Shown here piece by piece: positions 50,177-64,000 of a DNA stretch of 64,000 nucleotides. Under the pieces are notes generated by a model. It was not told the origin of the DNA and did no database searches. It saw only the letters and a program-made list of their open reading frames with translations. The DNA comes from Parvibaculaceae bacterium PLY_AMNH_Bact1. Its GTDB lineage: Bacteria; Pseudomonadota; Alphaproteobacteria; Parvibaculales; Parvibaculaceae. The number at the start of each line of letters is the position of its first letter. The first letter of the stretch is position 1. The DNA is taken from positions 2,852,001 through 2,916,000 of the forward strand of contig CP126168.1 in assembly GCA_032881465.1 (NCBI GenBank). Direction: 5' to 3'. A program made the position numbers and the translations under genes.

Positions 50177-50437
50177 CCATTAGTGCATAGGCGACCGAAG
50201 GCCAGATCGCTGGCTTCAATGACGCCAATGCAAATGGCTTCTTCGCCGATCTCCGCGCAGCCTGGGGGCGCTCCAGCAATGACGGTCTTTATTCGAACGG
50301 GTCTCTCGCGCGTGAAGTTCAGGGACTGCGAGGACGGATAGGTTGCGGCCTGAACCTCGCAAGAACCAGCGTCAGACCTATAGAAAGAGAGACGACAAGC
50401 TGGGGCTATTCAGTTTGTATACCAAAGACACCCACAC

Positions 50438-50495
50438 TATCTCATTGATTTACAAAAAGGTATTCAGATCAAAAGTGCGACTGTGTAGAAAAGTG
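50438..50495. repeat. two-part motif, copy A (possible attachment-site arm)
   Basis: TATCTCATTGATTTACA (50438-50454) and ACTGTGTAGAAAAGTG (50480-50495) match the segments at 56260-56276 (15 of 17) and 56302-56317 (15 of 16) with the same 42-base offset. The rest of the 495-base gap (50095-50589) holds the LysR relic and the promoter region of the AraC gene, with no other supportable gene. Confidence 0.6.
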
Positions 50496-50589
50496 CAAAA
50501 ATATTGGGCCACGTCATCCCGATTGTAGGAACCACATTATTCTTCTACTTTTATTGAGATAGTTTCCCGCGTGAGGCAAGATTCTTCAG

Positions 50590-51684
50590 ATGATGGATTT
50601 ACATCTCTTCCTATTTGCGATCGATGTCGTTGCCTTTGTCACCATCACCTTGATGGGAATAAACTTCCTCGTTTCACAACCTAGGAATTTAAATGCAAGA
50701 CTGCTCACGCTCATTTCATTTAACACTGCGTGCTACATCATCTTTACCCGATACATTTACTCAAACCTGATCCCCGCTCCCTATCAGGTTGACCCGGGTG
50801 GTTTTCTCATCCTGCTGCGCTTCGTCATGAACCTCACTCCAGGGCTGTTCATGATCCTCGCGCACTCTCTATTCCAGGATGACAAAAGGTTCCCACGCTG
50901 GCTTTTTGCCGCCTTTGCCGTGCAAGTTTTGCTTGAAGAACCAATTCCGGTGGCATTGTCAATTGATGTGGCTCTAGGCGACTTCCTGTTCGAGACAGTT
51001 CCGGCCGTCTTGCAACTTATCTTTACAGGGCTCGCCATGGCCTGGACGATCAGAAACTGGCGAGCAGATATGGTCGGAGAACGCAGAAAGTTGCGCATTC
51101 TCTTTCTCCTGGTCATTGGGATCATCATCATTTTTTCAGTGCTGGCGCGGATTTTGGTTCCGCTTGGCATCATCACGCCCCTCGCGACCTACCTATCGTC
51201 CAGCATCTCATACGCACTTCTAGGGGTCATCGGAGTATTGACAGCCCTTCGCGACGGCACGCATTTTTTTACTGAACCTGGCCAACGCACACCGTCGGCT
51301 CCGACCGTTTCTAAGGAAGATGCTCTTTCGGAGCAGGATGTTGCGACTATCCGCGATGCGTTTGAGAAGAACCACATTTACCGGGAAGGTGGTCTCTCTA
51401 TCGGGTCCTTGGCGGCCAAACTAGCGATCCCCGAATACCGTCTCCGCAAGATCATTCATAGAAAGCTAGGCTACCGAAACTTCAACGCCCTTGTTCATCA
51501 CTACCGTATTGAAGAAGCAGCAGAGCGACTGATTTCAGAAAATGAACGACATCTGCCTATCCTCACCGTTGCACTTTCTGTGGGCTACCAGTCGATCAAT
51601 CCTTTCAATAGGGCCTTCCGCGAGCTCAAAGACATGAGCCCGTCGGAATATCGCACTCAGTACAGCCCGAGCAATCCCGGCTGA
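50590..51684 (+). CDS. membrane-bound AraC family regulator with seven-helix sensor
   Basis: A 364-residue protein. Residues 5-225 form about seven transmembrane helices (for example DVVAFVTITLMGINFLV and LFLLVIGIIIIFSVLARILV). The C-terminal AraC domain (about 250-360) has LSIGSLAAKLAIPEYRLRKI and LTVALSVGYQSINPFNRAFR. It therefore senses something at or in the membrane and acts on DNA directly. The exporter genes downstream on the same strand are the probable targets, helped by operator-like repeats at 51709-51771. Confidence 0.9.
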   Translation: MMDLHLFLFAIDVVAFVTITLMGINFLVSQPRNLNARLLTLISFNTACYIIFTRYIYSNLIPAPYQVDPGGFLILLRFVMNLTPGLFMILAHSLFQDDKRFPRWLFAAFAVQVLLEEPIPVALSIDVALGDFLFETVPAVLQLIFTGLAMAWTIRNWRADMVGERRKLRILFLLVIGIIIIFSVLARILVPLGIITPLATYLSSSISYALLGVIGVLTALRDGTHFFTEPGQRTPSAPTVSKEDALSEQDVATIRDAFEKNHIYREGGLSIGSLAAKLAIPEYRLRKIIHRKLGYRNFNALVHHYRIEEAAERLISENERHLPILTVALSVGYQSINPFNRAFRELKDMSPSEYRTQYSPSNPG

Positions 51685-51708
51685 CCATTCAAAAAAACAC
51701 GAAAAACT

Positions 51709-51771
51709 GCGTCAATCACTTCAAAACCTCCCCATTTTTTGAAATTGACCAACACTTACAATCATTGACGC
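51709..51771. promoter_or_regulatory. repeated ATTGAC sites upstream of the HlyD-type exporter
   Basis: GCGTCAAT (51709-51716) and ATTGACGC (51764-51771) are perfect inverted copies 47 bases apart. A third ATTGAC lies at 51744-51749, and TTCAAAA/TTTTGAA (51720-51726 and 51737-51743) nest inside. They lie between the AraC gene and the exporter, fitting regulator sites; a hairpin ending the AraC transcript is an alternative. Confidence 0.45.
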
Positions 51772-51845
51772 GCGGGCAGATGCCTCCCGTGACAGCTTTA
51801 GCTTCTGGCCCACACACCCGTGGACCAGATAGCTGAGAACCCGTC

Positions 51846-52931
51846 ATGGTTGATGTACAAATCGAAAAACGTGCCCTACTTGATGAACTAGCAAGTCCCA
51901 GATCAGCTCAAGGGTCGCATCAAGGTTTTTCGGCGCCAAAAGCGTCCGGCGGCGCCGGGCGATATGTGTTCGCGATCACCGTTCTTGGCGCGATTGTGGC
52001 GCTTATCGCTTGGCAAATTGTGCCGGGAAAACAACTTACCGGTGCGGAAGAAACTGCTGGAGCTGACGTCGAACCTGGTCCTGCACCCGCTTGGCAAACT
52101 GTCACAGATAGCACTCCCTCAGCACCTCTCCTGCCAGCCATTACCAGTGTTCTGGATGCAACCGGTTATGTCGTCGCGAGGCGCCAGGCCGCCGTTAGTT
52201 CCAAGATAACGGGCAAGGTCGCTGAAATACTGATCGAAGAAGGCATGCTCGTCGAGGAGGGGCAACTACTCGCGCGGCTGGATGATCTCATTCCTCGCGC
52301 TGAATACAATCTGGCGATTTCCGAACTTGAGGGCACGAAGCTTGCCGTCAATGAACTCAGAATCTCCCTCGTACAAGCTCAGCGGGACCTCAAACGTGTG
52401 GAAACCCTTGCCGAAAGCGAGTTTGCAAGCCGCGCCATGCTGGAACGTGCGGAAACCAAGGTCGCTGAGTTGCGGGCTCAAATCTCAAGTGCGCGACAGA
52501 GCGTCAATATGGCCGACCGGAGAGCGGCCGTTCGGGCCCAGGTACTAGCAGATACAGAGATACGTTCCCCCTTTACCGGCATCGTAACAACCAAGTCTGC
52601 CCAGCCAGGAGAAATGATCTCACCTGTGTCAGCGGGCGGCGGCTTCACCCGCACTGGAATTTGCACCATTGTCGATATGAGCTCACTCGAGGTGGAAGTC
52701 GATGTGAATGAAGCCTTTATCGACCGGGTTTATGGCGCGCAGCCCGCGCAAGTGCTGCTGAACGCATACCCTGACGATCCATTCCCTGCAGAAGTCATCG
52801 CCATCATACCCGCCGCCGACCGTAACAAAGCGACAATCCGCATCAGAATTGGTTTCCTTGAAAGAGATGCACGTGTCCTGCCCGGCATGGGTGTGCGTGT
52901 GTCATTCAGAACAGAACCAAAACTCAATTAA
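51846..52931 (+). CDS. HlyD/MacA-type membrane fusion protein
   Basis: A 361-residue adaptor. One inner-membrane helix (about 38-58) is followed by a lipoyl half (VSSKITGKVAEILIEEGMLV), a coiled-coil hairpin (about 150-225), a second lipoyl half (TEIRSPFTGIVTTKSAQPGE) and a barrel domain. It pairs with the ATPase and two FtsX-type permeases downstream, a MacAB-like export system with an expanded permease set. The substrate is unknown. Confidence 0.9.
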   Translation: MVDVQIEKRALLDELASPRSAQGSHQGFSAPKASGGAGRYVFAITVLGAIVALIAWQIVPGKQLTGAEETAGADVEPGPAPAWQTVTDSTPSAPLLPAITSVLDATGYVVARRQAAVSSKITGKVAEILIEEGMLVEEGQLLARLDDLIPRAEYNLAISELEGTKLAVNELRISLVQAQRDLKRVETLAESEFASRAMLERAETKVAELRAQISSARQSVNMADRRAAVRAQVLADTEIRSPFTGIVTTKSAQPGEMISPVSAGGGFTRTGICTIVDMSSLEVEVDVNEAFIDRVYGAQPAQVLLNAYPDDPFPAEVIAIIPAADRNKATIRIRIGFLERDARVLPGMGVRVSFRTEPKLN

Positions 52932-52953
52932 GTCGACAATCAAGGAGGTTCCT

Positions 52954-53652
52954 ATGTCAGATAGTACCGCTGCTCTGATGAGCTGTCGCAACATCGAGAA
53001 GACCTACATAAAAGGCCGAGAGAAAGTGAATGTCCTGAGCGGCATCAATCTAGATATCACTGAGGGAGAGTTTCTCGCGCTTATGGGGCCTTCGGGCTCG
53101 GGCAAGACAACCCTGCTCAACCTCATGGGCGGGCTTGACCATCCAACATCAGGCGAGATCTTGATGAACGGGCGGGCCTTGCAAGACCTTTCTTCCAACG
53201 AGCTTGCCCGCTGGCGGTCTGAATATGTCGGCTTTGTCTTCCAGTTCTACAATCTTTTGCCTGTTCTGAGCGCTCGAAACAATGTGGCCCTGCCCCTTCT
53301 GCTCACGACCCTCTCCGCTTCCCAGCGGAGGAAAAAGGCGATGACGGCGCTCAAGATTGTCGGCCTTGAAGCCCGGGCGAAACATAAACCTCGCGAACTG
53401 TCTGGTGGCCAACAACAGCGTGTCGCCATTGCCCGCGCCATTGTCAGTGACCCCAAGCTTATTGTTTGCGACGAGCCAACCGGTGACCTGGACAGGGCAA
53501 CCGCAGATGAAATTCTCGATCTTCTGCAGGCCCTCAACCGTGATTTCGGCAAGACCATTATCATGGTCACTCACGATCCGAAAGCTGCGGAGCGAGCGGG
53601 CCGACTTCTCCATTTAGATAAGGGCCAGTTGGTTGGGGAGTTGGTGTCATGA
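52954..53652 (+). CDS. MacB/LolD-type ABC ATPase
   Basis: A 232-residue ATPase. Walker A is [13 protein letters not shown], the signature is [15 protein letters not shown] and Walker B is [13 protein letters not shown]. An H-loop VTHDPKA completes it. The start at 52954 follows AAGGAGG; the longer frame overlaps the adaptor gene. It serves the two FtsX-type permeases that follow, the first overlapping it by four bases. Confidence 0.95.
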
Positions 53653-54815
53653 TTCCCCTAAGTCTCGGGAGGCTCGCCGCCGCAAACCTGTTTCGCCACC
53701 CAACACGTACCCTTCTCTCCTTCACGTCTCTTGCAATCGCATTTTTGCTTTTCATGTTGTTAAACGCGATCACCGCTGCCTTTTCCAGCGGTCCTTCTGA
53801 GGGGGCCGTCAACCGCCTTGTCGTCGACGCAAAATATTCCATGACGGACAATTTGCCGGTCACCTACCTCCAGCAGATACGCGCGCTGGACGGCGTAGAT
53901 AATGCCGCAAGCGTCAATTGGTTTGGTGGCTACTATCGCGATCCGAAGGAAACGTTCACGACGCTTGCAGTCAATCCGGTCGAATATTTTGAAATTCTCA
54001 GCGACTATGACATTGCGCCAGAGGCGCTCGCTCGCTTCGAGGCCACACGTGCAGGTGCTGTTGTCTCCACATCCCTTGCAGAGAAATACGGATGGCGCAT
54101 CGGAGATCGCATCACCTTACGCGGCAACATCTGGCCAATGGAGAATGGATCCTGGGACTGGGAGTTTGAAATTGCCGGCACATTCAATGGCAATGCCTCC
54201 CAACTCTCAGACACACTCTTTCTTCTTCGCCAAGACCATTTTGACGATGCCGTCGCGAGCTGGGCCAAAAACCAGGTAGGGTTCATTCTTCTAACCGTCG
54301 CGAAAGGTCATAAGCCCGAAGACATCGCCAACGCCATAGACAAGCTTTATGAAAACTCCTCTGATCCAACCAGAACAGCCAGCGAAGACCAATATGCCAG
54401 GCAGTTTGTCAGCCAGCTTGGAGACATAGGTTTGATGAGCACGGCTATACTAAGTGCGGTTTTCTTCACCATCCTGCTCCTAACAGGCAACACTGCGTCT
54501 CAGACATTTCGGGAGCGCGTGCCCGAGCTTGCCGCGATGAAAACCTTGGGTTTTACAGACGCTTCCGTTGCTGCACTCGTACTCGGTGAAGCTGTGGTCT
54601 TGTGTGTGGCGGGTGGCGCATGTGGCATCTCCGTCGCTCTTTTTCTGGAACCAGCTCTCAATGACAGTATCGGCGCGGTGCTCGGTGGCCTTGAAATGAA
54701 CTTGGTAAGCGCACTCCTGGGCCTAGCCCTTGCAGCTGGCATTGGCCTTCTGATCGGCATCCAGCCCGCATGGTCTGCAAAACGTCTCAGCATCGCCGAT
54801 GCGCTGCGAGATTAG
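53649..54815 (+). CDS. FtsX/MacB-type ABC permease (first of two)
   Basis: A 388-residue permease. One N-terminal helix (LLSFTSLAIAFLLFMLLNAI), a large periplasmic domain with WGFQ-like content, and three C-terminal helices (STAILSAVFFTILLLTGNTA and following) form the FtsX plan. A conserved FRERVPELAAMKTLGFTDAS block links helices. It overlaps the ATPase gene (ATGA) and precedes the second permease gene by 12 bases, suggesting a heterodimer. Confidence 0.92.
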   Translation: MIPLSLGRLAAANLFRHPTRTLLSFTSLAIAFLLFMLLNAITAAFSSGPSEGAVNRLVVDAKYSMTDNLPVTYLQQIRALDGVDNAASVNWFGGYYRDPKETFTTLAVNPVEYFEILSDYDIAPEALARFEATRAGAVVSTSLAEKYGWRIGDRITLRGNIWPMENGSWDWEFEIAGTFNGNASQLSDTLFLLRQDHFDDAVASWAKNQVGFILLTVAKGHKPEDIANAIDKLYENSSDPTRTASEDQYARQFVSQLGDIGLMSTAILSAVFFTILLLTGNTASQTFRERVPELAAMKTLGFTDASVAALVLGEAVVLCVAGGACGISVALFLEPALNDSIGAVLGGLEMNLVSALLGLALAAGIGLLIGIQPAWSAKRLSIADALRD

Positions 54816-54827
54816 GTGGAGAACAAC

Positions 54828-55988
54828 ATGCTTGCTCAAACAAAGGCAATTACGACTATGAACCTGCGCAACATCGTGCAGCGGCCAGGGACAAGTATTG
54901 TCGTCGTGGTTGGCATTGCCGGTGTTGTTGCGGTCCTTGTCGGTCTGCTTGCAATGGCCAAAGGTTTCAATGCCGCGCTTACCACCACAGCAGCACCCGA
55001 CCGAGCCATTGTGCTCGGGCACGGCAGTCGCAACGAAATGAATTCCTGGCTCACCAATGAAGAGCTCAACATCATGTCGCAACTAGAAGGTCTTGAGATG
55101 ACGAGTGGTGAGATGTACGCCGTTGTCGACCTCACGCAACGCACCAGCGGCGAACAGGCTTACGTTGTTGGGCGTGGCATCACCCCTGCTGCCTACACCG
55201 TGCGGCCAGAGCTCACGCTGGCTTCTGGTCGTTTTCCGCAAGCTGGCCGTGCCGAATTATTGGTAGGTGCGACGGCGGCACGAGAATATCTCGGGCTTGC
55301 CGTCGGTGATGACGTCAAGCTGCGCGACAGTATCTGGCGGGTTGTTGGCCATTTCGATACGGGCGGCACGGCAAACGATTCCGAGATTTGGATGGATCTA
55401 TCGCTTGCTAAGTCCGTATTCCGTCGCAATGGCGTCAGCACCATGCGGGTACGCCTCTCTGACACAAACGATATGGCCGCGATCCAGGACAGAATTGCGC
55501 GAGATCCACGTCTCAATATCTCTCTGGTAAGGGAGGACGAATTTTATGCATCTCAGGCAGAAGCACGGACCAGCCTGATAGAAACATTCACCTACTTCAT
55601 CGCGAGCATCATGGCTGTCGGGGCGATCATCGCCGCACTCAACTCCATGTATGTCGCAGTTGAATCTCGCAAAGTAGAGATCGCCACGCTACGCGCGTTG
55701 GGGTTTGGGCAGGCACCCATCATTTCTTCAGTAATGGCGGAGGCACTCTTCCTTTCCGCTATTGGCGGAGTTGCTGGCGCCACCCTCGTCTATTTCGCGA
55801 TGAACGGCTATACAACCTCAACGCTCAACGGTGCCTCTAACACGCAAATAGCATTTAGTTTCATGGTCTCGCCCAGGCTTATCAGCTTGGGACTCAGTTG
55901 CGCTTTGATGCTAGGGCTTATCGGCGGGCTGGCGCCAGCCATCCACGCAGCCCGTGCGCCAATCACGACGGCCCTTTTGGGGAAGTAG
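54828..55988 (+). CDS. FtsX/MacB-type ABC permease (second of two)
   Basis: A 386-residue permease with the same plan: one helix near the start (VVVVGIAGVVAVLVGLLAMA), a periplasmic domain containing TSGEMYAVVDL, and three C-terminal helices. SRKVEIATLRALGFGQAPII corresponds to the coupling block of its partner. The start at 54828 follows GGAG; the GTG at 54816 is before that site. It ends the operon. No other gene follows before the tRNA remnant. Confidence 0.92.
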   Translation: MLAQTKAITTMNLRNIVQRPGTSIVVVVGIAGVVAVLVGLLAMAKGFNAALTTTAAPDRAIVLGHGSRNEMNSWLTNEELNIMSQLEGLEMTSGEMYAVVDLTQRTSGEQAYVVGRGITPAAYTVRPELTLASGRFPQAGRAELLVGATAAREYLGLAVGDDVKLRDSIWRVVGHFDTGGTANDSEIWMDLSLAKSVFRRNGVSTMRVRLSDTNDMAAIQDRIARDPRLNISLVREDEFYASQAEARTSLIETFTYFIASIMAVGAIIAALNSMYVAVESRKVEIATLRALGFGQAPIISSVMAEALFLSAIGGVAGATLVYFAMNGYTTSTLNGASNTQIAFSFMVSPRLISLGLSCALMLGLIGGLAPAIHAARAPITTALLGK

Positions 55989-56159: not shown

Positions 56160-56194
56160 AAAAGCCCCTGATGCTTGAAGCACCAAGGGCTTTT
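56160..56194 (-). terminator. terminator of the tRNA-fMet remnant
   Basis: AAAAGCCC (56160-56167) and GGGCTTTT (56187-56194) form a stem with an inner GCTTGAAGC mini-hairpin. On the minus strand it follows the tRNA 3' end by a few bases, as native terminators of tRNA genes do. Confidence 0.8.
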
Positions 56195-56197
56195 CAA

Positions 56198-56244
56198 TGG
56201 TTGCGGGGATAGGATTTGAACCTATGACCTTTAGGTTATGAGCC
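56198..56244 (-). pseudogene. 3' remnant of initiator tRNA-fMet (CAT)
   Basis: On the minus strand the segment reads GGCTCATAACCTAAAGG and continues with a perfect T-arm (ATAGG-TTCAAAT-CCTAT) and the acceptor end CCCCGCAACCA, matching the anticodon loop to CCA of initiator tRNAs. The CCCCGCA arm would pair with a C1-mismatched GCGGGG as in fMet. The expected 5' half (D-arm, acceptor 5' strand) is absent; unrelated DNA starts right of the anticodon loop. This is the usual scar of an element inserted in a tRNA gene. Confidence 0.88.
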
Positions 56245-56259
56245 GAAACGCACTCAGGC

Positions 56260-56317
56260 TATCACTTTGATTTACATGGGTTATCGGGAACAAGAAACAA
56301 AACTGTGTAGCAAAGTG
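56260..56317. repeat. two-part motif, copy B (possible attachment-site arm)
   Basis: TATCACTTTGATTTACA (56260-56276) and ACTGTGTAGCAAAGTG (56302-56317) repeat the copy at 50438-50495 with identical spacing. It lies just inside the sequence that replaced the tRNA 5' half, where integrase arm sites would be expected. A second TGTGTAA follows directly. The remaining bases to 56491 hold no supportable gene. Confidence 0.6.
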
Positions 56318-56491
56318 TGTAAGTTTATGTCGTTTGGTGCGTTCAACAACCAAAGCTTCAGACCCTCGAATACTCGGCAGAATATTCCGGCGTCCGCGGC
56401 GTGGTTTTCACGAAATTTGGCGACCTTCCATAGCGGATTGTACCCGAGGAACTATCATAGGGATCTCCATCAGCAGACCCAGACCAGCTGA

Positions 56492-57268
56492 TTAGGAAGC
56501 AACGATGCGGTTTCCCGCAATCTCACAATCTACACCTCTATTCCCAACATTGAGCCCTTCGAACACTTTGCCTATGGCAATCGTCACGGGGCCGTTGCCA
56601 TCACACGCTACCAGTAGGCGATCCAAGTCAACTAACCGCCCGGCTACCGATTTTTGCGTATCGCGAGAGACGTCTTTGACGACTACGACGGACGTTGTCC
56701 CCGGCCGGCCATGCTCTATGAGCTTTTGCGCAAGTTCACCCCCGGTCCGCCCCCCCATATAGACAATCAGCGTCGTTGTTTCATGCGCAAGGCCGGACCA
56801 GTCCAAATCCGGCGGCAGTGTGCCTTTCGCCCCATGCGCGGTAACGAAGCGCAAGGACTGCGCGCAGGCACGGTGCGTGAGGGATACATTAAGACTGGCC
56901 GCCAATGCCGACGCGGTTGTTATGCCTGGTACCACGGTTACGCCGACACCTGCTGCTGTAAGAGCGGCAATCTCTTCGCCTGAACGCCCAAATACAGACG
57001 GATCGCCAGACTTCAAACGCACCACCTGCCGACCCTCTCGCGCCAAGCGGATCATCAGCTCGTTAATATCCCCTTGGGCCCAGCTGGGCCGTCCTGCCCG
57101 CTTGCCAACGCCAATCGCAGTAGGGCCCGGACCGATCACTTCAAGGATCTGGCGGCTAACCAGATCATCAAAGAGGATGACATCAGCTTCACGTAAAACA
57201 CGTAGTGCTTTGATGGTCAGAAGCTCGGGATCGCCCGGGCCAGCGCCCACAAGAATGACTTGCTTCAT
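56492..57268 (-). CDS. cobA: uroporphyrinogen-III C-methyltransferase
   Basis: A 258-residue SUMT that adds two methyl groups to uroporphyrinogen III using SAM, making precorrin-2 for siroheme (and cobalamin). VILVGAGPGDPELLTIKALR and LVSRQILEVIGPGPTAIGVG are signature blocks, and VYMGGRTGGELAQKLIEHGR lies in the C-half. It lacks the oxidase/ferrochelatase domain of CysG. It follows nasA directly and supplies siroheme for NirB, so it belongs to the nitrate operon. Confidence 0.95.
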   Translation of the reverse strand: MKQVILVGAGPGDPELLTIKALRVLREADVILFDDLVSRQILEVIGPGPTAIGVGKRAGRPSWAQGDINELMIRLAREGRQVVRLKSGDPSVFGRSGEEIAALTAAGVGVTVVPGITTASALAASLNVSLTHRACAQSLRFVTAHGAKGTLPPDLDWSGLAHETTTLIVYMGGRTGGELAQKLIEHGRPGTTSVVVVKDVSRDTQKSVAGRLVDLDRLLVACDGNGPVTIAIGKVFEGLNVGNRGVDCEIAGNRIVAS

Positions 57269-57269
57269 C

Positions 57270-59927
57270 CTAAACCGCCTCTCGCATGTCAGCCGCTACA
57301 AGAAGGCGCCCAATCTCTGAGCGGCAGGACCCACAATTGGTTCCCGCATTAAGTGCGGCACCCACAGCATCAATCGTGTGCGCCCCCTCCCGCATAGCCT
57401 GCGTAATTTGGTTTGCGCCGACGTCAAAACAGGAACAGACAATAGCGCCAACATCTGGTTGGTCAGCGCCTGCGCGACCCGCAAGCAGCGTACAACGCGA
57501 TCCAGGGTCCTGCTCTCGGCCCAACTGATCAACCAGCCAGGCGCGCGCCACCTCGACCGGCTTGCCAGACCAAAAGACGGCGTGCGAGAGCTTACCGGAA
57601 GTGCACTGCATGTAACTGCCGCCGCCCTTCCCATCGTCGTATGAGAATGGTTCGGTACCCGGCACACCCATGCCAAAAAGGTTTCCGGCCTCTTCAGAGA
57701 ATGAAGCAATCGGACGGTCACCTGCGATCTCCGCGCGCCAACCGCTTTTGGTGCGCGCCAGGGCCCAATAAGGAAAAGCGTCAAGATCTGGTTTATGAAC
57801 GGAGACAAGAAAGGCATGCCATGTCATCGGCGCTCGCTCAGCGCGTACCGGCGTGAATTTGAGCTCAGGCTGGCCAGACACAGGATCTGTGTTGGAGGCG
57901 ACCAAGGCGTCGACTTCTGCGCAAGTTGAATAGGGCGCCGTCCAATGAATGGGCACAAAGACAGCGCCTTTGGACTGACGGTGTGTCACAGATGCTCTTG
58001 CGAGAATAGACCCTCGTGCGCTCTCTATGCGAACCACATCGCCGGTCCATATTCCGGCTGACCTTGCATCGTCGGAGTGCATCTCAACGAATGGCTCCGC
58101 AATATGCGACGACAGGCGAGCGGACTGCCCGGTTCGGGTCATAGTGTGCCACTGATCCCGTATGCGCCCCGAGTTAAGGATCAATGGATATGTCGCACAC
58201 GTCTCAGTTGCGGGAGGCTTTTGCGACACGGCAACAAAGTTTGCTTTCCTCGATTTTGTATAGAAGCCCCCTTTTTCAAAAAGGCGTTTTGTCCCCTTTT
58301 CCGCGCCTTCACGAACAGGCCATTGAATGGGCTTCAAGGCCTCATAACCCTCGTCACTCAGTTCCAAGAGACCAGACAGATCAAAGTCCCGGTTTCCATC
58401 ATTCTCAAATGCGGACAAAGCGGCATGTTCGCGGAATATCTCCGCGGGGTTCTCATACGAAAACCCGTAGAATCCCATCCGTTGCGCCACTTCGGAGATG
58501 ATCCACCAATCTGGTTGAGAAGATCCGGCCCCTTCCACAAAGGACCGCTGCCTTGAGATCCGCCGTTCCGAGTTTGTCACCGTCCCATCCTTCTCACCCC
58601 AGCCCATCGCTGGAAGAAGGACATGCGCCAGGGCCGCCGTTTTTGTTGTGTCGGTTACATCTGAAACCACAACAAAGGGACAGGCTTCTATTGCGGCCAA
58701 CACCCGGTCGGCATCAGGCATGCTCGCGGCAGGGTTGGTTGCCATTATCCAGAGAGCCTTGATGTCCCCGCTCGCCACGCGGTCAAAAAGATCAACCGCT
58801 TTCAGACCTGGCTTCTTCGCCAAATTCGGTGCGTCCCAAAACCGCCCCACCATGTCTCGATGGTTCTGATCTTCAAAACTCATATGAGCGGCAAGTTGGT
58901 TCGCCAGGCCGCCCACTTCCCGCCCACCCATGGCATTCGGCTGGCCGGTTATGGAAAAGGGGCCCATCCCTTCACGACCAATCCGCCCGGTAGCGAGGTG
59001 GCAATTGATAATCGCGTTGACTTTGTCTGTTCCCACGCTCGATTGATTGACGCCTTGGGAATAGACCGTCACCACCTTCTCAGTCTCGCAAAACGCCTGA
59101 TAAAACTGAGTAAGACGGATCGGATCGAGATGCGTCGCTTCAGCAACCGCCGCAAGGTTCATTGCCTTTGCACTGTCCAGAGCGACATCAAAGCCTTCTG
59201 TGCGCATTGAGATATAGGACGCGTCGAGCGCCTCCTTGTCTGCAAGGTAGCCAAGGAGACCATTGAACAGTGCAACATCTGATCCCGGGTGCAACGGCAA
59301 ATGCATGTCCGCCATCTCGGTCGTCGCTGTTTGCCTTGGGTCAATGACGACAATACGGCTTCCACGATCCTGTTTCGCCGCTACCAGCCGCTGAAACAGA
59401 ACCGGATGACACCAGGCGAAGTTGGACCCGACCAGCACGACAAGATCCGCTTCGTCCAGATCTTCATAGGCACCCGGTACCGTGTCACTGCCGAAGGCGC
59501 GTTTGTGGCCAGCAACTGAAGATGCCATGCAGAGTCTGGAGTTCGTGTCGATGTTCCCAGAGCCGATGAAGCCCTTCATTAGCTTATTGGCGACATAATA
59601 ATCCTCGGTGAGCAACTGGCCGGACACGTAGAAAGCAACAGAGTCGGGGCCATGATCGCGAACGGCCTGCGAAAAGCCTTGAGCCACCCTATCCAATGCA
59701 CTGTCCCAGTCGGATGCTTGACCCCGAACCGTCGGCGTTAACAGCCGGTCCTCGAGAGAAAACGTGTCCCCCAATGCTGAGCCTTTGGAACAGAGCTTTC
59801 CGAAGTTCGCAGGGTGATCCGGGTCACCAGAAACCTCCACCCCGCCATCGTCATTTTGTCGAGCAATAACACCACATCCCACACCGCAATAGGGACACGT
59901 TGTCTTCACGCTGACGCCAGCTGTCAT
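57270..59927 (-). CDS. nasA: assimilatory nitrate reductase catalytic subunit
   Basis: An 885-residue molybdopterin enzyme reducing nitrate to nitrite in the cytoplasm. The N-terminal [4Fe-4S] ligands are C11, C14, C18 and C46 (TTCPYCGVGC, KLCSKG). Molybdopterin-guanine-dinucleotide binding spans the middle, with a C-terminal barrel (about 590-720). The end carries a BFD-like [2Fe-2S] unit: IVCSCFDVG and NCGSCRSEIG. This fused unit suggests electron input by a ferredoxin or flavoprotein. It lies between nirD and cobA in a leftward operon. Confidence 0.95.
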   Translation of the reverse strand: MTAGVSVKTTCPYCGVGCGVIARQNDDGGVEVSGDPDHPANFGKLCSKGSALGDTFSLEDRLLTPTVRGQASDWDSALDRVAQGFSQAVRDHGPDSVAFYVSGQLLTEDYYVANKLMKGFIGSGNIDTNSRLCMASSVAGHKRAFGSDTVPGAYEDLDEADLVVLVGSNFAWCHPVLFQRLVAAKQDRGSRIVVIDPRQTATTEMADMHLPLHPGSDVALFNGLLGYLADKEALDASYISMRTEGFDVALDSAKAMNLAAVAEATHLDPIRLTQFYQAFCETEKVVTVYSQGVNQSSVGTDKVNAIINCHLATGRIGREGMGPFSITGQPNAMGGREVGGLANQLAAHMSFEDQNHRDMVGRFWDAPNLAKKPGLKAVDLFDRVASGDIKALWIMATNPAASMPDADRVLAAIEACPFVVVSDVTDTTKTAALAHVLLPAMGWGEKDGTVTNSERRISRQRSFVEGAGSSQPDWWIISEVAQRMGFYGFSYENPAEIFREHAALSAFENDGNRDFDLSGLLELSDEGYEALKPIQWPVREGAEKGTKRLFEKGGFYTKSRKANFVAVSQKPPATETCATYPLILNSGRIRDQWHTMTRTGQSARLSSHIAEPFVEMHSDDARSAGIWTGDVVRIESARGSILARASVTHRQSKGAVFVPIHWTAPYSTCAEVDALVASNTDPVSGQPELKFTPVRAERAPMTWHAFLVSVHKPDLDAFPYWALARTKSGWRAEIAGDRPIASFSEEAGNLFGMGVPGTEPFSYDDGKGGGSYMQCTSGKLSHAVFWSGKPVEVARAWLVDQLGREQDPGSRCTLLAGRAGADQPDVGAIVCSCFDVGANQITQAMREGAHTIDAVGAALNAGTNCGSCRSEIGRLLVAADMREAV

Positions 59928-59929
59928 GC

Positions 59930-60274
59930 TCAGGCAACCTTCTTTTGCTTGAGTGCACTGACGTCAAGCAGTATCCGGTCTCCTTGCACGTCGGTCGGAT
60001 AGGTCCTCACGCATCCTCCGTCCGGCCCCAGCCCCTCACCGCTTGCAAGGTCAATGATCAGATTGTGCAGCGGGCAGGTCACCCGCTGGTCGTGCACAAT
60101 ACCTTGAGACAACGGGCCGCCGAGATGCGGGCAGCGATCATCAATTGCAAAGATAGAATCATCGCTTGTACGAAACACCGCCACCGCACCGCCCGCCACC
60201 TGTATAAGGCGCGACCCGCGGACGGGCACATCGGACACCTTTCCTATTTCGACCCATTTTTCTGTTTTGCTCAT
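59930..60274 (-). CDS. nirD: nitrite reductase small subunit
   Basis: A 114-residue Rieske-fold protein. Both halves of the Rieske motif are present: RCPHLGGPLSQG and TCPLHNLIIDL. Some NirD homologues have lost these ligands, so a real [2Fe-2S] cluster is possible here. It partners NirB for NADH-dependent reduction of nitrite to ammonium. It overlaps nirB by four bases and precedes nasA by two. Confidence 0.94.
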   Translation of the reverse strand: MSKTEKWVEIGKVSDVPVRGSRLIQVAGGAVAVFRTSDDSIFAIDDRCPHLGGPLSQGIVHDQRVTCPLHNLIIDLASGEGLGPDGGCVRTYPTDVQGDRILLDVSALKQKKVA

Positions 60275-62742
60275 TCGGCAGCCTCAAGTGTGAGATCCGC
60301 CATTGGCCGGAAGGCATGAGCCTCTGCGCCCTGCGCGCGTTCAGCCCAAGGGTCGGTTTGCGAGAATTTCTGGGAGAATACAAAACGGTCAAACAGTGCA
60401 GCCCGTTGATCTGCGTCTTCGACAATCACTTTTCGGATTGTCTCCACACCAACCCGCCGGGCCCACTTGTATATGCGTTCCAGATAGTAACCCTGCTCTC
60501 GGTAAAGCTGAACCACAGCAACGATCATCTCTAGAGCGTCATCTTCCGTCGCAGCATGCCCAAGCACCTCCGTGCCTTTAATGTCGAGGCCAGCAGCACC
60601 GGCAAAATGAATCTCGTAGCCGGAGTCCACACAGATGACGCCTACATCCTTGCAGGTAGCCTCCGAGCAGTTTCGCGGACAGCCTGAGACCGCCATCTTC
60701 ACTTTGGCCGGAGTCCACGACCCCCACATGAAGCGTTCAATCCGAATGCCGAAACCAGTTGAGTCTTGCGTTCCAAAGCGACACCAGTCCGTACCAACGC
60801 AGGTTTTGACGGTACGCAACGCTTTGCCGTACGCGTGACCTGAAACCAGACCCGCCTGATTTAGGTCCGACCAAACCTCAGGGAGGTCTTCTTTTTTGAT
60901 ACCGAGGAGGTCAATGCGCTGTCCCCCGGTGACCTTTACGGTTGGGACAGAGAACTTGTCGGCGACATCGGCAATCGCGCGAAGTTCGTCCGCACTTGTA
61001 ATGCCACCCCACATGCGCGGCACCACCGAATAGGTGCCGTCTTTTTGGATGTTTGCGTGAACACGCTCATTCACAAACCTTGATTGCGCATCGTCCACAT
61101 ACTCGCCGGGCCAGGTTGCCAGCAGATAATAGTTCAGCGCCGGACGGCATTTCGCACATCCACAGGAAGTCTTCCACTCCAGTTCCTGCATCACGTCCTC
61201 AAGTGTTTTGAGCTCCTTGGCAACAATCAGTCGACGCACATCACCGTGCCCGAGGTCTGTACAGCCGCACATGGACGGAATGGCCGTCGGGTTAAACGCA
61301 TCACCGAGCGACAGAGTCAGCAGCTGCTCTACCAGCCCGGTGCAAGAGCCGCAGGACGCAGATGCTTTGGTATGCGCTCTGACGTCCTCAACATCGCTGA
61401 GCTTTTGCTCGCCAATTTCCGCGAGAATTGTTCCCTTACAAACGCCGTTACAGCCGCAGATTTCTGCATCATCGGGCAAGGCTGCAACGGCCACCATAGG
61501 GTCCAGAGGGGCACTCCCAGCAAAGGCCTGACCGAATATCAGCGTATCTCTCATCTCGCTGACATCTGTCCCACTTTTAATCAGATCAAAGAACCAGGCG
61601 CCGTCGGTCACATCCCCATAAAGAACGGCACCGATCAACTTATTGCCCTCGACCACCAGTCGTCGATAGACACCCGCCTGAGCATCTCGAAGAACAATTT
61701 CTTCCCGGCCTGCCCCTTCTGTAAAGTCACCTGCAGAAAAAAGGTTGATCCCGGTGACTTTCAACTTTGTTGCCGTGGCACTATCGGCAAATGTCGCATC
61801 TCCACCGGTGAGGGTTGCCGCTGCCACTTTTGCCATCTCATAAAGGGGCGCTACTAGGCCATAGGTCGCCCCATCCACTTCGGCACACTCACCAAGCGAC
61901 AGAATGTCTGGATCGCTAGTCTCCATCCGGCCGTTGACAACAACACCCCGGTTGACCGTCAAATCTGCATCTTCGGCAAGCTTCGAACTTGGGCGAATAC
62001 CCGCGGCCATGACCACGAGGTCAGCTGGAAGAACCGTGCCGTCCGCAAGATGCACTCCAGATACCCGACCGTTCCCTGCAATTTCCGTTGTATTCGCCCC
62101 TGTGACAACGGCGATGCCTCGCGCTTCGAGTTCACGTTGCAGCAAGCGGCCTGCGGCGGCATCCAGCTGACGTTCCATCAAGGTTGGCATTAGGTGCACA
62201 ACTGTCACTTTCATGCCCTGCGCAAGCAAACCTGCCGCAGCTTCCAACCCCAAAAGCCCGCCACCTATGATGACGGCATTGCCTCCTGCTTTTGATGTTA
62301 GGATCATCGCCTCCACATCATCTAGGTCACGGTAAGTAAGTACTCCCGCAAGGTCTTTTCCTGAAACTGGAATAACGAAAGGTGTTGACCCCGTAGCAAT
62401 AACGAGCTTGTCGTAATTCTCTACGACACCTTGGTCGGAGCGAACCGTCTTCTTTTCGCGATCAATCTCGACAATTTTGTGCCCCTTGTAGAGAACAATG
62501 TTCCGGTCGATGTACCAACCGTCACCGTGGATCACAATTTCATCAAAACTCTTCTCTCCAGAAAGAACTGGAGAAAGCATGATCCGATCATAGTTCACGC
62601 GCGGCTCTGCGTTAAAGATGATCACGTCGTATGTGCTCGGTGCGAGCTTGAACAACTCCTCAAGCATGCGCCCGGGCGCCATGCCATTGCCAACGACGAC
62701 GAGCCGCTGTCGCTGAGGAAGCTCTGTTGCATCAGGTGACAT
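60271..62742 (-). CDS. nirB: nitrite reductase large subunit
   Basis: An 823-residue siroheme enzyme. The N-terminal FAD/NAD domain (about 10-300) includes AVIIGGGLLGLEAAAGLLAQ. Two BFD-like [2Fe-2S] units follow (EICGCNGVCKG, SCGSCTGLVE and a second MCGCTDLG...SCGCAKC). The C-terminal sulfite/nitrite reductase domain has the [4Fe-4S]-siroheme ligands in TCVGTDWCRFG and SGCPRNCSEATC. It reduces nitrite to ammonium. It starts nine bases after the ABC gene stop. Confidence 0.96.
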   Translation of the reverse strand: MSPDATELPQRQRLVVVGNGMAPGRMLEELFKLAPSTYDVIIFNAEPRVNYDRIMLSPVLSGEKSFDEIVIHGDGWYIDRNIVLYKGHKIVEIDREKKTVRSDQGVVENYDKLVIATGSTPFVIPVSGKDLAGVLTYRDLDDVEAMILTSKAGGNAVIIGGGLLGLEAAAGLLAQGMKVTVVHLMPTLMERQLDAAAGRLLQRELEARGIAVVTGANTTEIAGNGRVSGVHLADGTVLPADLVVMAAGIRPSSKLAEDADLTVNRGVVVNGRMETSDPDILSLGECAEVDGATYGLVAPLYEMAKVAAATLTGGDATFADSATATKLKVTGINLFSAGDFTEGAGREEIVLRDAQAGVYRRLVVEGNKLIGAVLYGDVTDGAWFFDLIKSGTDVSEMRDTLIFGQAFAGSAPLDPMVAVAALPDDAEICGCNGVCKGTILAEIGEQKLSDVEDVRAHTKASASCGSCTGLVEQLLTLSLGDAFNPTAIPSMCGCTDLGHGDVRRLIVAKELKTLEDVMQELEWKTSCGCAKCRPALNYYLLATWPGEYVDDAQSRFVNERVHANIQKDGTYSVVPRMWGGITSADELRAIADVADKFSVPTVKVTGGQRIDLLGIKKEDLPEVWSDLNQAGLVSGHAYGKALRTVKTCVGTDWCRFGTQDSTGFGIRIERFMWGSWTPAKVKMAVSGCPRNCSEATCKDVGVICVDSGYEIHFAGAAGLDIKGTEVLGHAATEDDALEMIVAVVQLYREQGYYLERIYKWARRVGVETIRKVIVEDADQRAALFDRFVFSQKFSQTDPWAERAQGAEAHAFRPMADLTLEAAE

Positions 62743-62751
62743 TCTTTCTCC

Positions 62752-64000
62752 TTATGCGATGGCCGCTTCGGCGGCTGGTTTGGTGTCTGGTTTTGTGACC
62801 GGCTTGGCGCCATGTTCATATTCTTCAAGGAAGGACAGAACTTCTTCACGGTACCGGTAGTAGTCTGGGTGCTCCAACAGCGCGGCTCGTGTTCGAGGGC
62901 GCGGCAGATCAATGTCCACGATTTTGCCAATGGTGGCGTTCGGACCGTTGGTCATCATGACAATGCGGTCACCTAACAGGATCGCTTCGTCAACATCATG
63001 GGTCACGCAGATCGCCGTGACCTGCGTCCGTTTCCAAACATCCATGAGGACTTCCTGCAGCTCCCAGCGCGTCAGGCTGTCGAGCATGCCGAAAGGCTCG
63101 TCCAACAAAAGCAGCTTTGGAGAGAGGGCAAACGCCCGCGCGATGCCAACACGCTGTTTCATGCCATTCGACAATTCCGCAGCTTGCTTGTGCATGGAGT
63201 CGCCAAGCCCCACCCGCTCCAGATAATACTCCACGACTTCACGGCGTTCAGCGGCAGAGGCTTTTGGGTAAACCCGATCTACACCCATTGCCACATTCTC
63301 CCGAGCGGTCAGCCAAGGCATGAGGGATGGAGCCTGGAAGACCACCGCCCTGTCGGGGCCCGCACCAGAAATCTCATGATTGTCTAAAACAACCCCGCCA
63401 CCGGAAATCTCGTTGAGACCGGCGACCATCGACAGGACTGTGGACTTGCCGCAGCCTGAATGTCCGATGAGTGAAACAAACTGCCCCTTATCCATTTTCA
63501 GATTGAAATCTTCCAACACCGTCAGTGGACCCTTTGGCGTGGGATAGATTTTCTTCAACTCAAAGAGTTCAACGAACCGGTTTTCTGTTTTGGTTCGAGC
63601 GGCGTCCAAATAGGCCCGCGGCGGCGTCTTTTCGATACGCGCGGTTGGCTTGAGGTCGGGAGCCGCCCGTTCAGCTGACTTTCTGGCTTCCCTTTCCATT
63701 TTGCTTGCGTCCAACAGGTAGCCTGTCACCTCCGCTCGCAGTGCCTTAAACATCGGATTGCTATTCACCGCCGTTCGGTCTCTCGGACGGGGCAGATTGA
63801 CATCAAAAGAGGGGCCCAATGTCGCGGAGGGACCTGGGGTCAGGGGGATGATCCGATCCGCGAGAAGAATTGCTTCATCAACATCGTTCGTGATCAAGAT
63901 CACTGTCTTGCGGTCTGCTTCCCAGATCGCTTCAATCTCATCCTGCAGGTTTGCACGGGTCAGCGCATCGAGCGCTGACAACGGTTCATCGAGCAAGAGG
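62752..64000 (-). CDS. tandem ABC ATPase for nitrate uptake (runs off right edge)
   Basis: Open to the window edge, so the N-terminus is missing. The visible 416 residues hold the end of one ATPase (LLLDEPLSALDALTRANLQD, then VILITNDVDEAILLADRII) joined by a linker to a complete second ATPase: Walker A GHSGCGKSTVLSMVAGL, signature ELSNGMKQRVGIARAFA, Walker B LLLLDEPFGMLDSL. A single chain with two ATPase domains of the NrtC/NrtD type suggests a fused nitrate/nitrite importer ATPase. Its position upstream of nirB, in the same direction, supports that. The signature LSNG in place of LSGG is normal for this subfamily. Confidence 0.92.
   Translation of the reverse strand, partial: LLLDEPLSALDALTRANLQDEIEAIWEADRKTVILITNDVDEAILLADRIIPLTPGPSATLGPSFDVNLPRPRDRTAVNSNPMFKALRAEVTGYLLDASKMEREARKSAERAAPDLKPTARIEKTPPRAYLDAARTKTENRFVELFELKKIYPTPKGPLTVLEDFNLKMDKGQFVSLIGHSGCGKSTVLSMVAGLNEISGGGVVLDNHEISGAGPDRAVVFQAPSLMPWLTARENVAMGVDRVYPKASAAERREVVEYYLERVGLGDSMHKQAAELSNGMKQRVGIARAFALSPKLLLLDEPFGMLDSLTRWELQEVLMDVWKRTQVTAICVTHDVDEAILLGDRIVMMTNGPNATIGKIVDIDLPRPRTRAALLEHPDYYRYREEVLSFLEEYEHGAKPVTKPDTKPAAEAAIA

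Follow-up and report, generated by a model that had tools for sequence, protein, structure and literature searches.

A tRNA-fMet scar beside the nitrate genes

The window analysed here is a 64,000-nucleotide stretch (C1:2852001-2916000) of the 3.74-Mb, single-contig genome of Parvibaculaceae bacterium PLY_AMNH_Bact1 (G000). On its minus strand, at 56198-56244, lies the scar F1, which consists of the 3' 47 nt of a tRNA-fMet, from two bases 5' of the anticodon loop through the CCA. In a search of its own genome F1 matched positions 31-77 of an intact tRNA-fMet (C1:2945326-2945402) with 98% identity over 47 nt, a single mismatch and an E-value of 8.4e-17, which is far above chance level. This bears out an earlier sequence-only reading, which had recognised here an initiator tRNA reduced to the part between anticodon loop and CCA. 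Neither ARAGORN nor Rfam at its gathering threshold called a tRNA in the window, as is to be expected because F1 is a fragment. The resemblance to the tRNA ends at 56245, where, as had also been read beforehand, other sequence replaces the 5' half. From its likeness to the arm of a second scar, F2, and to arms in related genomes, the sequence at 56245-56335 (minus strand) was assigned to the right-hand segment as its integrase arm; TTACACA/CTACACA repeats occur in it at about 56301-56327. F1 and F2 are 87% identical over 174 nt covering arm, tRNA part and terminator, and related arms are present in the relatives G001, G002 and G004. The TTACACA..CTACACA repeats of the F1 and F2 arms also occur directly upstream of the integrase gene described below. 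The arm-motif pattern was found in 50 of 78 loci compared with 2 of 1560 mononucleotide shuffles, a count that is no independent test because the pattern had been fitted by eye to the same sequences.

A terminator-like hairpin (56160-56197, minus strand), made up of an inverted repeat at 56160-56194 and a T-run, follows the fragment on its 3' side. The sequence-only reading had taken it for the tRNA's own terminator and had concluded that the foreign DNA should lie to the right. The hairpin is there, but it is not unique to F1: it is present at the other compared junctions too, and the terminator together with the stretch past it is repeated behind F2 and, in several relatives, behind tRNA fragments or tRNAs. 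Because of this repetition the terminator alone is no guide to which side is host. The left neighbour of F1 is array cargo as well (see below).

The genes to the right of F1 are all encoded on the minus strand. They comprise a cobA/cysG-type uroporphyrinogen-III methyltransferase (56492-57268; Pfam TP_methylase, TIGR01469 over cut-off), a NasA/NasC-like assimilatory nitrate reductase (57270-59927; molybdopterin oxidoreductase domains, the listed NCBIfam matches including NasC all being below their cut-offs), the nitrite reductase small subunit nirD (59930-60274; TIGR02378 over cut-off) and large subunit nirB (60271-62742; TIGR02374 over cut-off), and the start of a nitrate-type ABC transporter ATPase (62752-64000; Pfam). 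These domain matches agree with the cobA, nasA, nirBD and nitrate ABC genes named earlier, with the reservation on NasC. The segment continues past the window with a BPD_transp_1 permease, an NMT1_2 binding protein, a porin-like protein, a second NMT1_2 protein and an ANTAR regulator before it reaches F2. The second fragment lies 14.8 kb to the right of F1, so that the nitrate genes sit in a 14.8-kb segment with an attachment-site scar on either side and no integrase. Between F1 and F2 no match to the integrase family model was obtained, and among the larger reading frames Pfam and NCBIfam gave no integrase or transfer genes, but nitrate, transport and regulator genes instead; a 94-aa reading frame had no match of any kind. 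The statement that no integrase is visible in the window was likewise supported for the one family found later, whose model gave no match in a six-frame search.

An array of four tRNA-fMet copies

A genome search found four tRNA-fMet copies in G000 (E 2e-34 to 8e-17), two intact and two 3' fragments, which share the minus strand and span no more than 37.2 kb; the match ranked after them has an E-value of 0.04. F2 (C1:2923041-2923087) is a 47-nt 3' fragment with 100% identity to the intact gene. F3 (C1:2943684-2943760) is a complete tRNA-fMet with 86% identity that folds in ARAGORN and, by eye, keeps the C1:A72 pair. F4, the intact gene to which F1 was matched, is located 37 kb to the right of F1 in the same orientation, at the side where the sequence-only reading had proposed to look for it. 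An integrase gene of 391 codons (C1:2944013-2945188; Pfam) lies between F4 and F3 and starts about 140 bp behind F4. Thus a displaced 3' fragment is found downstream of an intact tRNA on the same strand and, when the array is taken as a whole, an integrase gene lies between the two. A search with the family model found no further member of the family within the array. A whole-genome rRNA search, which matched in 9 of 14 controls, gave no 16S match in G000, and the rRNA context of the tRNA was not used.

The contents of the F2-F3 stretch include a PF03432 relaxase, a NikA/MobC protein and a T4SS coupling protein (Pfam), as well as a 203-aa integrase of a different kind, a HipA-like kinase, a pentapeptide protein and a fatty-acid-desaturase-like protein. 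The segment from F2 to the intact tRNA therefore holds both an integrase and a relaxase, the combination that is looked for in an integrative and mobilisable element. As a separate observation, the part that adjoins the nitrate genes (C1:2923647-2930943; L005, L221) carries the HipA-like kinase and a 1577-aa protein, which matches the candidate defence NTPases PDC-M54A (E 1.1e-13) and Avs2 (E 0.0015). The order of an integrase followed by a complete tRNA-fMet is common to the modules of G000 and G002 (second copy at C1:2497029-2497105 in the latter), though F4 is intact, and the compared hotspot regions of G001, G003, G005 and G006 each contain one tRNA-fMet only. The simplest reading of F3 would be a spare tRNA-fMet copy.

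To the left of F1, at a distance of 5.7 kb, a third and decayed scar was detected at 50411-50510 (minus strand), in which the arm is recognisable and the tRNA part is eroded (nhmmer E 1.1e-9 to 1.4e-9, with a model built from five junctions including F1 and F2). The genes between it and F1 (50590-55988, plus strand; Pfam) encode an AraC-type regulator, a HlyD-like protein, an ABC ATPase and two MacB/FtsX-like permeases. Host collinearity with G001 and G002 ends at C1:2902042 and 2902065, i.e. at 50.04-50.07 kb of the window and just left of the third scar; with G003 it ends at C1:2900675. The exporter genes are collinear at 81% identity within the variable region of G002, and blastn gave no match for them in the variable region of G001 or G003. 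Because a decayed arm lies to their left and they belong to the variable region of G002 while being unmatched in G001 and G003, the left neighbour of F1 (about 50.6-56.0 kb) is itself array cargo and not simply host DNA. A single island bounded at F1, as pictured in the sequence-only reading, is thus replaced by a stack, with a further scar on either side of F1.

The integrase and its family

The integrase of the array has a weak match to PF13102 (Phage_int_SAM_5; E 9e-6), which is above the cut-off and concerns the SAM-like part only. For comparison the best 80 of 215 confirmed relatives were used; four of the 80 were left out of the residue alignment because of stops. R231, R327, H328 and Y359 are invariant in 77 of 77 aligned family proteins and would be candidate catalytic residues of a tyrosine recombinase. 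In 43 of the 80 loci a tRNA gene is situated 87-229 bp upstream of the integrase on the same strand: Met(cat) in 24, Phe, Lys and Arg in six each, and Asn in one. The initiator mark C1:A72 is present in 21 of the 24 tRNA-Met(cat) genes and absent in three. Nine further loci have, by eye, the end of a tRNA-fMet upstream of the integrase. Within flanks of up to 10 kb, and at the chosen mismatch limit, the 3' half of the tRNA was not found a second time in any of these 43 loci.

A tree of 78 integrase proteins tends to group rows of like target: the seven labels change 11 times over the 76 labelled rows, a number obtained with labels given partly by eye, SH-aLRT support only and no shuffle control. 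The G000 integrase is sister to that of G002 and belongs to a set of 28 rows that are all labelled fMet, while two more fMet-labelled rows, L066 and L083, fall outside it. None of the fMet-type loci among the 80 relatives has a second same-strand tRNA within 700 bp behind the integrase; one locus (L087) has a tRNA-Met(cat) within that distance on the opposite strand.

The same tRNA in related genomes

Over six relatives (G001 to G006), the nitrate cluster is at this tRNA in one and elsewhere in another; three have no nirB match and one has a distant nirB. A nirB was found in G000, as a single copy at the nitrate segment, and in G001 and G003; the copy of G005 is 61% identical, and no match at E 1e-50 was obtained in G002, G004 (88% complete) or G006. 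Between the shared flanks, the intact tRNA of G001 is followed by a 3.3-kb segment and then by an F2-type junction and the nitrate cluster, which is 80% identical to that of G000 over 14 kb; more genes and a degenerate junction complete the interval. In G002 the interval begins on the left with about 6 kb of different genes, after which come the exporter genes and two junctions, the first decayed and the second of the F1 type; a different 32-kb segment and a module with the order F3-integrase-F4 make up the rest. The same interval in G003 measures 13.8 kb and contains one decayed junction and no nirB. Its nitrate cluster lies on a different contig at a distance of 2.3 kb from a tRNA-Ala, with flanks that match G000 at places about 3 kb apart; a self-comparison found no copy of the tRNA-Ala end on the far side of the cluster. 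G005 and G006 have one intact tRNA and share the right flank, the left flank being unmatched in the 38 kb and 19 kb compared. None of the relatives compared has a cleanly empty site in which the two host flanks meet at an undisturbed tRNA.

With an F1-type junction beside other cargo in G002 and a relocated cluster in G003, F1 is not permanently tied to the nitrate genes. The sequence-only reading had named two observations that would speak against an island boundary, namely conservation of the right-hand DNA beside the remnant in all relatives and lack of an intact tRNA-fMet within island distance. Neither was found, the right-hand DNA not being conserved beside the remnant and the intact tRNA lying within 37 kb. 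The idea that an integrase made the junction is supported by these data, given an intact tRNA-fMet on the same strand, an integrase gene closely behind it and right-hand DNA that varies among relatives.

Some other features of these regions were recorded. A mosaic junction in G001 (C58:62303-62523; L042) has an interrupted tRNA fragment followed by another T-arm. A permease-like gene (by eye) of G003 (C2, near 2724597-2726003) is 91-94% identical to copies in G001 (C16:115167-116656), G002 (C1:2488854-2490320 and 1431434-1432905) and G004 (C67:15528-17138), which exceeds the identity of the left flank (80% to G001 and 88% to G002); the gene adjoins the nitrate cluster in G003 and sits inside the tRNA-fMet island in G002. 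Beside the nitrate cluster of G001 (C58:52.5-62.2 kb; L041, L042), urea carboxylase-, allophanate hydrolase- and ABC transporter-like genes were recognised by eye. In view of these urea-type genes, the tRNA-fMet site may gather nitrogen-acquisition genes.

Family members at tRNA-Leu genes with a group I intron

Twenty-six of the 80 loci were labelled by eye as Leu-type. A tRNA-Leu 5' half that extends to the anticodon loop precedes the integrase in 21 of them according to a sequence pattern, and by eye also in L058, and a tRNA-Leu gene follows behind the integrase. This gene contains a group I intron motif in 18 of the 26 loci and in one element of G000. ARAGORN predicted a complete intron-bearing tRNA-Leu(UAA) in 15 of the 18 and in G000; L051 and L106 were given other isotypes and L054 is at a contig edge. 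The remaining eight loci include L047 and L052, where the contig stops within the intron or ahead of it, five with an intronless tRNA-Leu(CAA) and one with tRNA-Leu(UAG). Rfam called the intron over threshold in three of the eight loci scanned and in G000.

A host 3' half at the far end was accepted if all 7 positions of its acceptor strand were complementary to the 5' half and the anticodon stem had at least four of five Watson-Crick pairs. Six of the 19 intron-bearing cases had one, with loop-to-loop lengths of 27,543 bp in G000, 29,852 bp in L058, 6,216 bp in L070, 14,036 bp in L071, 32,120 bp in L079 and 27,146 bp in L102; the other 13 had no matching pair of halves in the sequence compared. 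L110 has a 3' half; the left junction there resembles an arm and lacks a 5' half. The matches listed by one pattern search were used for L071, L079 and L110 only.

The Leu-type element of G000 occupies 27.5 kb (C1:2131497-2159126; L180-L182), with the 5' half starting at 2159126. Inside it are an integrase with an open frame (C1:2157754-2158944) and an intron-bearing tRNA-Leu(UAA) (C1:2157379-2157694). The overlap CTTAAAA begins at C1:2159094 and again at 2131551, and the halves joined through it give exactly the intact 87-nt intronless tRNA-Leu(UAA) of G001, G002, G003 and G005; that of G006 differs, and the match in G004 is cut by a contig end. Because the joined halves are letter-identical to the intact gene of four relatives, a tRNA-Leu(UAA) gene of G000 has been broken by the element in its anticodon loop. 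Presumably its function has passed to the intron-bearing copy of the element.

Group I introns were surveyed with strict filters in 289 genomes of the same class, all with a completeness of at least 90 and G000 among them. Twenty-eight matches were listed, in 26 of the genomes. Eight of the 28 introns are in a tRNA-Leu(UAA) according to ARAGORN, and three of these eight, G000 included, have an integrase of the family directly upstream, which leaves five intron-bearing tRNA-Leu(UAA) genes without such a neighbour. No family integrase was found upstream of the other 20 introns in flanks of up to 1.5 kb. It is quite conceivable, and is put forward here tentatively, that the integrase family carries whole tRNA genes as insurance. 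Leu-type elements would break the intronless tRNA-Leu(UAA) of the host and install a copy in which the intron, placed in the loop that is cut, confers immunity and so protects the new tRNA-Leu; the integrase would stand in for a homing endonuclease of the intron, and F3 would be the same arrangement without an intron.

Probable repeated integration and alternative explanations

The scars with their arms and common orientation, the intact tRNA, the integrase, the cargo that varies among relatives and the exact split of a tRNA-Leu loop are direct observations. They make it very probable that the integrase family uses the anticodon loop of tRNA-fMet for recombination and that F1 is one of its attachment-site junctions, that repeated integrations have stacked segments at this tRNA, and that the nitrate segment resembles a cis-mobilisable passenger. 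Weighing against this picture are the lack of a clean empty site in the relatives compared, the lack of a second 3' half in the flanks of the 43 tRNA-linked loci, the two fMet-labelled integrases outside the set of 28 rows and the weak Pfam match of the integrase. The integrase would bind its arms at the TTACACA repeats and recombine within the 7-bp anticodon loop, in which the likely crossover is placed. Since the element would keep the tRNA 3' half, every integration would restore a complete tRNA on one side and leave a 3' remnant on the opposite side. The stack would then read host, decayed scar, 5.5 kb of exporter genes, F1, nitrate segment, F2, mobilisable segment, spare tRNA-fMet, integrase and intact tRNA-fMet. 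The nitrate segment would be moved in cis when the integrase of its neighbour recombines its two sites, and the attachment sites may still be active.

As an alternative, the nitrate cluster may be an old one, inherited vertically in the family, that was never an island and was enclosed by scars through flanking insertions or rearrangement. Its identities for the pairs G000-G001, G000-G003 and G001-G003 (79.8, 81.2 and 82.1%) are similar to those of the left host flank (80.4, 82.0 and 80.2%) and above those of the right flank (76.4, 77.0 and 74.2%), and its GC content (0.553-0.565) is like that of the left flank (0.552-0.557; right flank, 0.570-0.579). In a tree of 13 nirB proteins the copies of G000, G001 and G003 make up a single clade with 100/100 support, next to genus g5 of the same family, and that of G005, which belongs to the same genus as G000, branches elsewhere. 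Against uninterrupted descent stand the displaced copy in G003, the missing nirB matches and the distant copy of G005. Site patterns favour G001 with G003 within the cluster and not within the flanks, a weak conflict that a faster rate in G000 could cause, and no transfer is claimed from it. An RpoB tree (RpoB found in 14 of 16 genomes) was tried for ordering the genus and rejected, being too conserved and having long-branched rows that probably come from picking the longest frame. We regard a cluster that was never part of an island as possible but doubtful. The cluster itself appears to be old, patchy and relocating, and the data do not support a recent import, since the cluster is about as diverged as the left flank and closer between the genomes than the right one, which vertical descent with relocation explains as well as transfer does. 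The suggestion that nitrate assimilation is a transferred island can be kept as far as the cluster is patchy, relocated and flanked by scars, and the comparison with relatives that had been proposed for it did show changing DNA beside the remnant; the identity, GC content and nirB grouping give no support to a recent foreign origin, the cluster being about as diverged as the left host flank.

The finding of only one family integrase in the array would fit a single insertion of one 37-kb island from F1 to the intact tRNA, with F2 produced by a later internal duplication. Yet F2 has an arm and a terminator of its own, an F2-type junction adjoins the nitrate cluster in G001 also, and further junctions exist in G001, G002 and G004, which makes this explanation highly improbable. 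Still less credence can be given to the idea that a tRNA was duplicated without any integration and that F1 was left over from this by chance or gene conversion. Fragments of tRNAs can have other origins, CRISPR spacers being one example (PMC9897764, in the part of the text available), but against such a relic stand the repeated unit of arm, core and terminator, the shared orientation and the integrase next to the intact copy. F1 is thus best understood as one junction among several left by repeated integration at tRNA-fMet.

Relation to known elements

As a junction, F1 itself is of a textbook type. Islands at tRNA genes, tandem arrays and passengers without an integrase are known already (PMC4383910, PMC3146451, as far as the available portions of these papers go). 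In the accessible text on Islander, 2083 of 3919 islands have an anticodon-centred site (PMC4383910), and the present array resembles those islands in having an intact tRNA at one end, a displaced 3' fragment in the same orientation at the other, a putative tyrosine integrase by the tRNA and an anticodon-centred site. The per-member test for tandem arrays asks for an integrase in each member; the nitrate segment, which has its own fragment and in which no integrase was found, would fail it. Another parallel in the sections available is provided by the ssrA islands of Dehalococcoides (PMC3146451), which stand in tandem behind one RNA gene, carry metabolic cargo and include members without an integration module, regarded as possible cis-mobilizable elements. 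Those islands use a tmRNA target and a serine recombinase, in contrast to the tRNA-fMet and predicted tyrosine recombinase here.

The tRNA-proximal segment, with integrase, relaxase and mobilisation protein, is similar to integrative and mobilizable elements as outlined in the available part of PMC5704250, a likeness at the level of genes only, and it has a coupling protein too. The Leu-type elements are reminiscent of IStrons, in which, according to the part of PMC4227781 available, a DNA-moving enzyme is coupled with a group I intron; there the intron belongs to a transposon, whereas here it interrupts a tRNA gene that is carried behind an integrase linked to a tRNA. Among the open-literature matches listed, judged by titles and the first lines of abstracts, none described the replacement of a whole tRNA-Leu gene by an intron-bearing copy. 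Nor did any match listed in the open literature on cis-mobilizable elements, tRNA-fMet islands and nitrate islands, in the portions available, describe the elements reported here. The array is a new example of its kind, and its cargo is unusual.

A full nitrate-assimilation segment between two attachment sites, without an integrase and at a tRNA with variable cargo, offers a testable case of metabolic passenger genes. The same integrase family ties site-specific integration to the replacement of tRNA genes and to group I introns. If the carriage of tRNA genes as insurance is true, it would explain the spread of tRNA introns that lack homing enzymes, which becomes directly testable.
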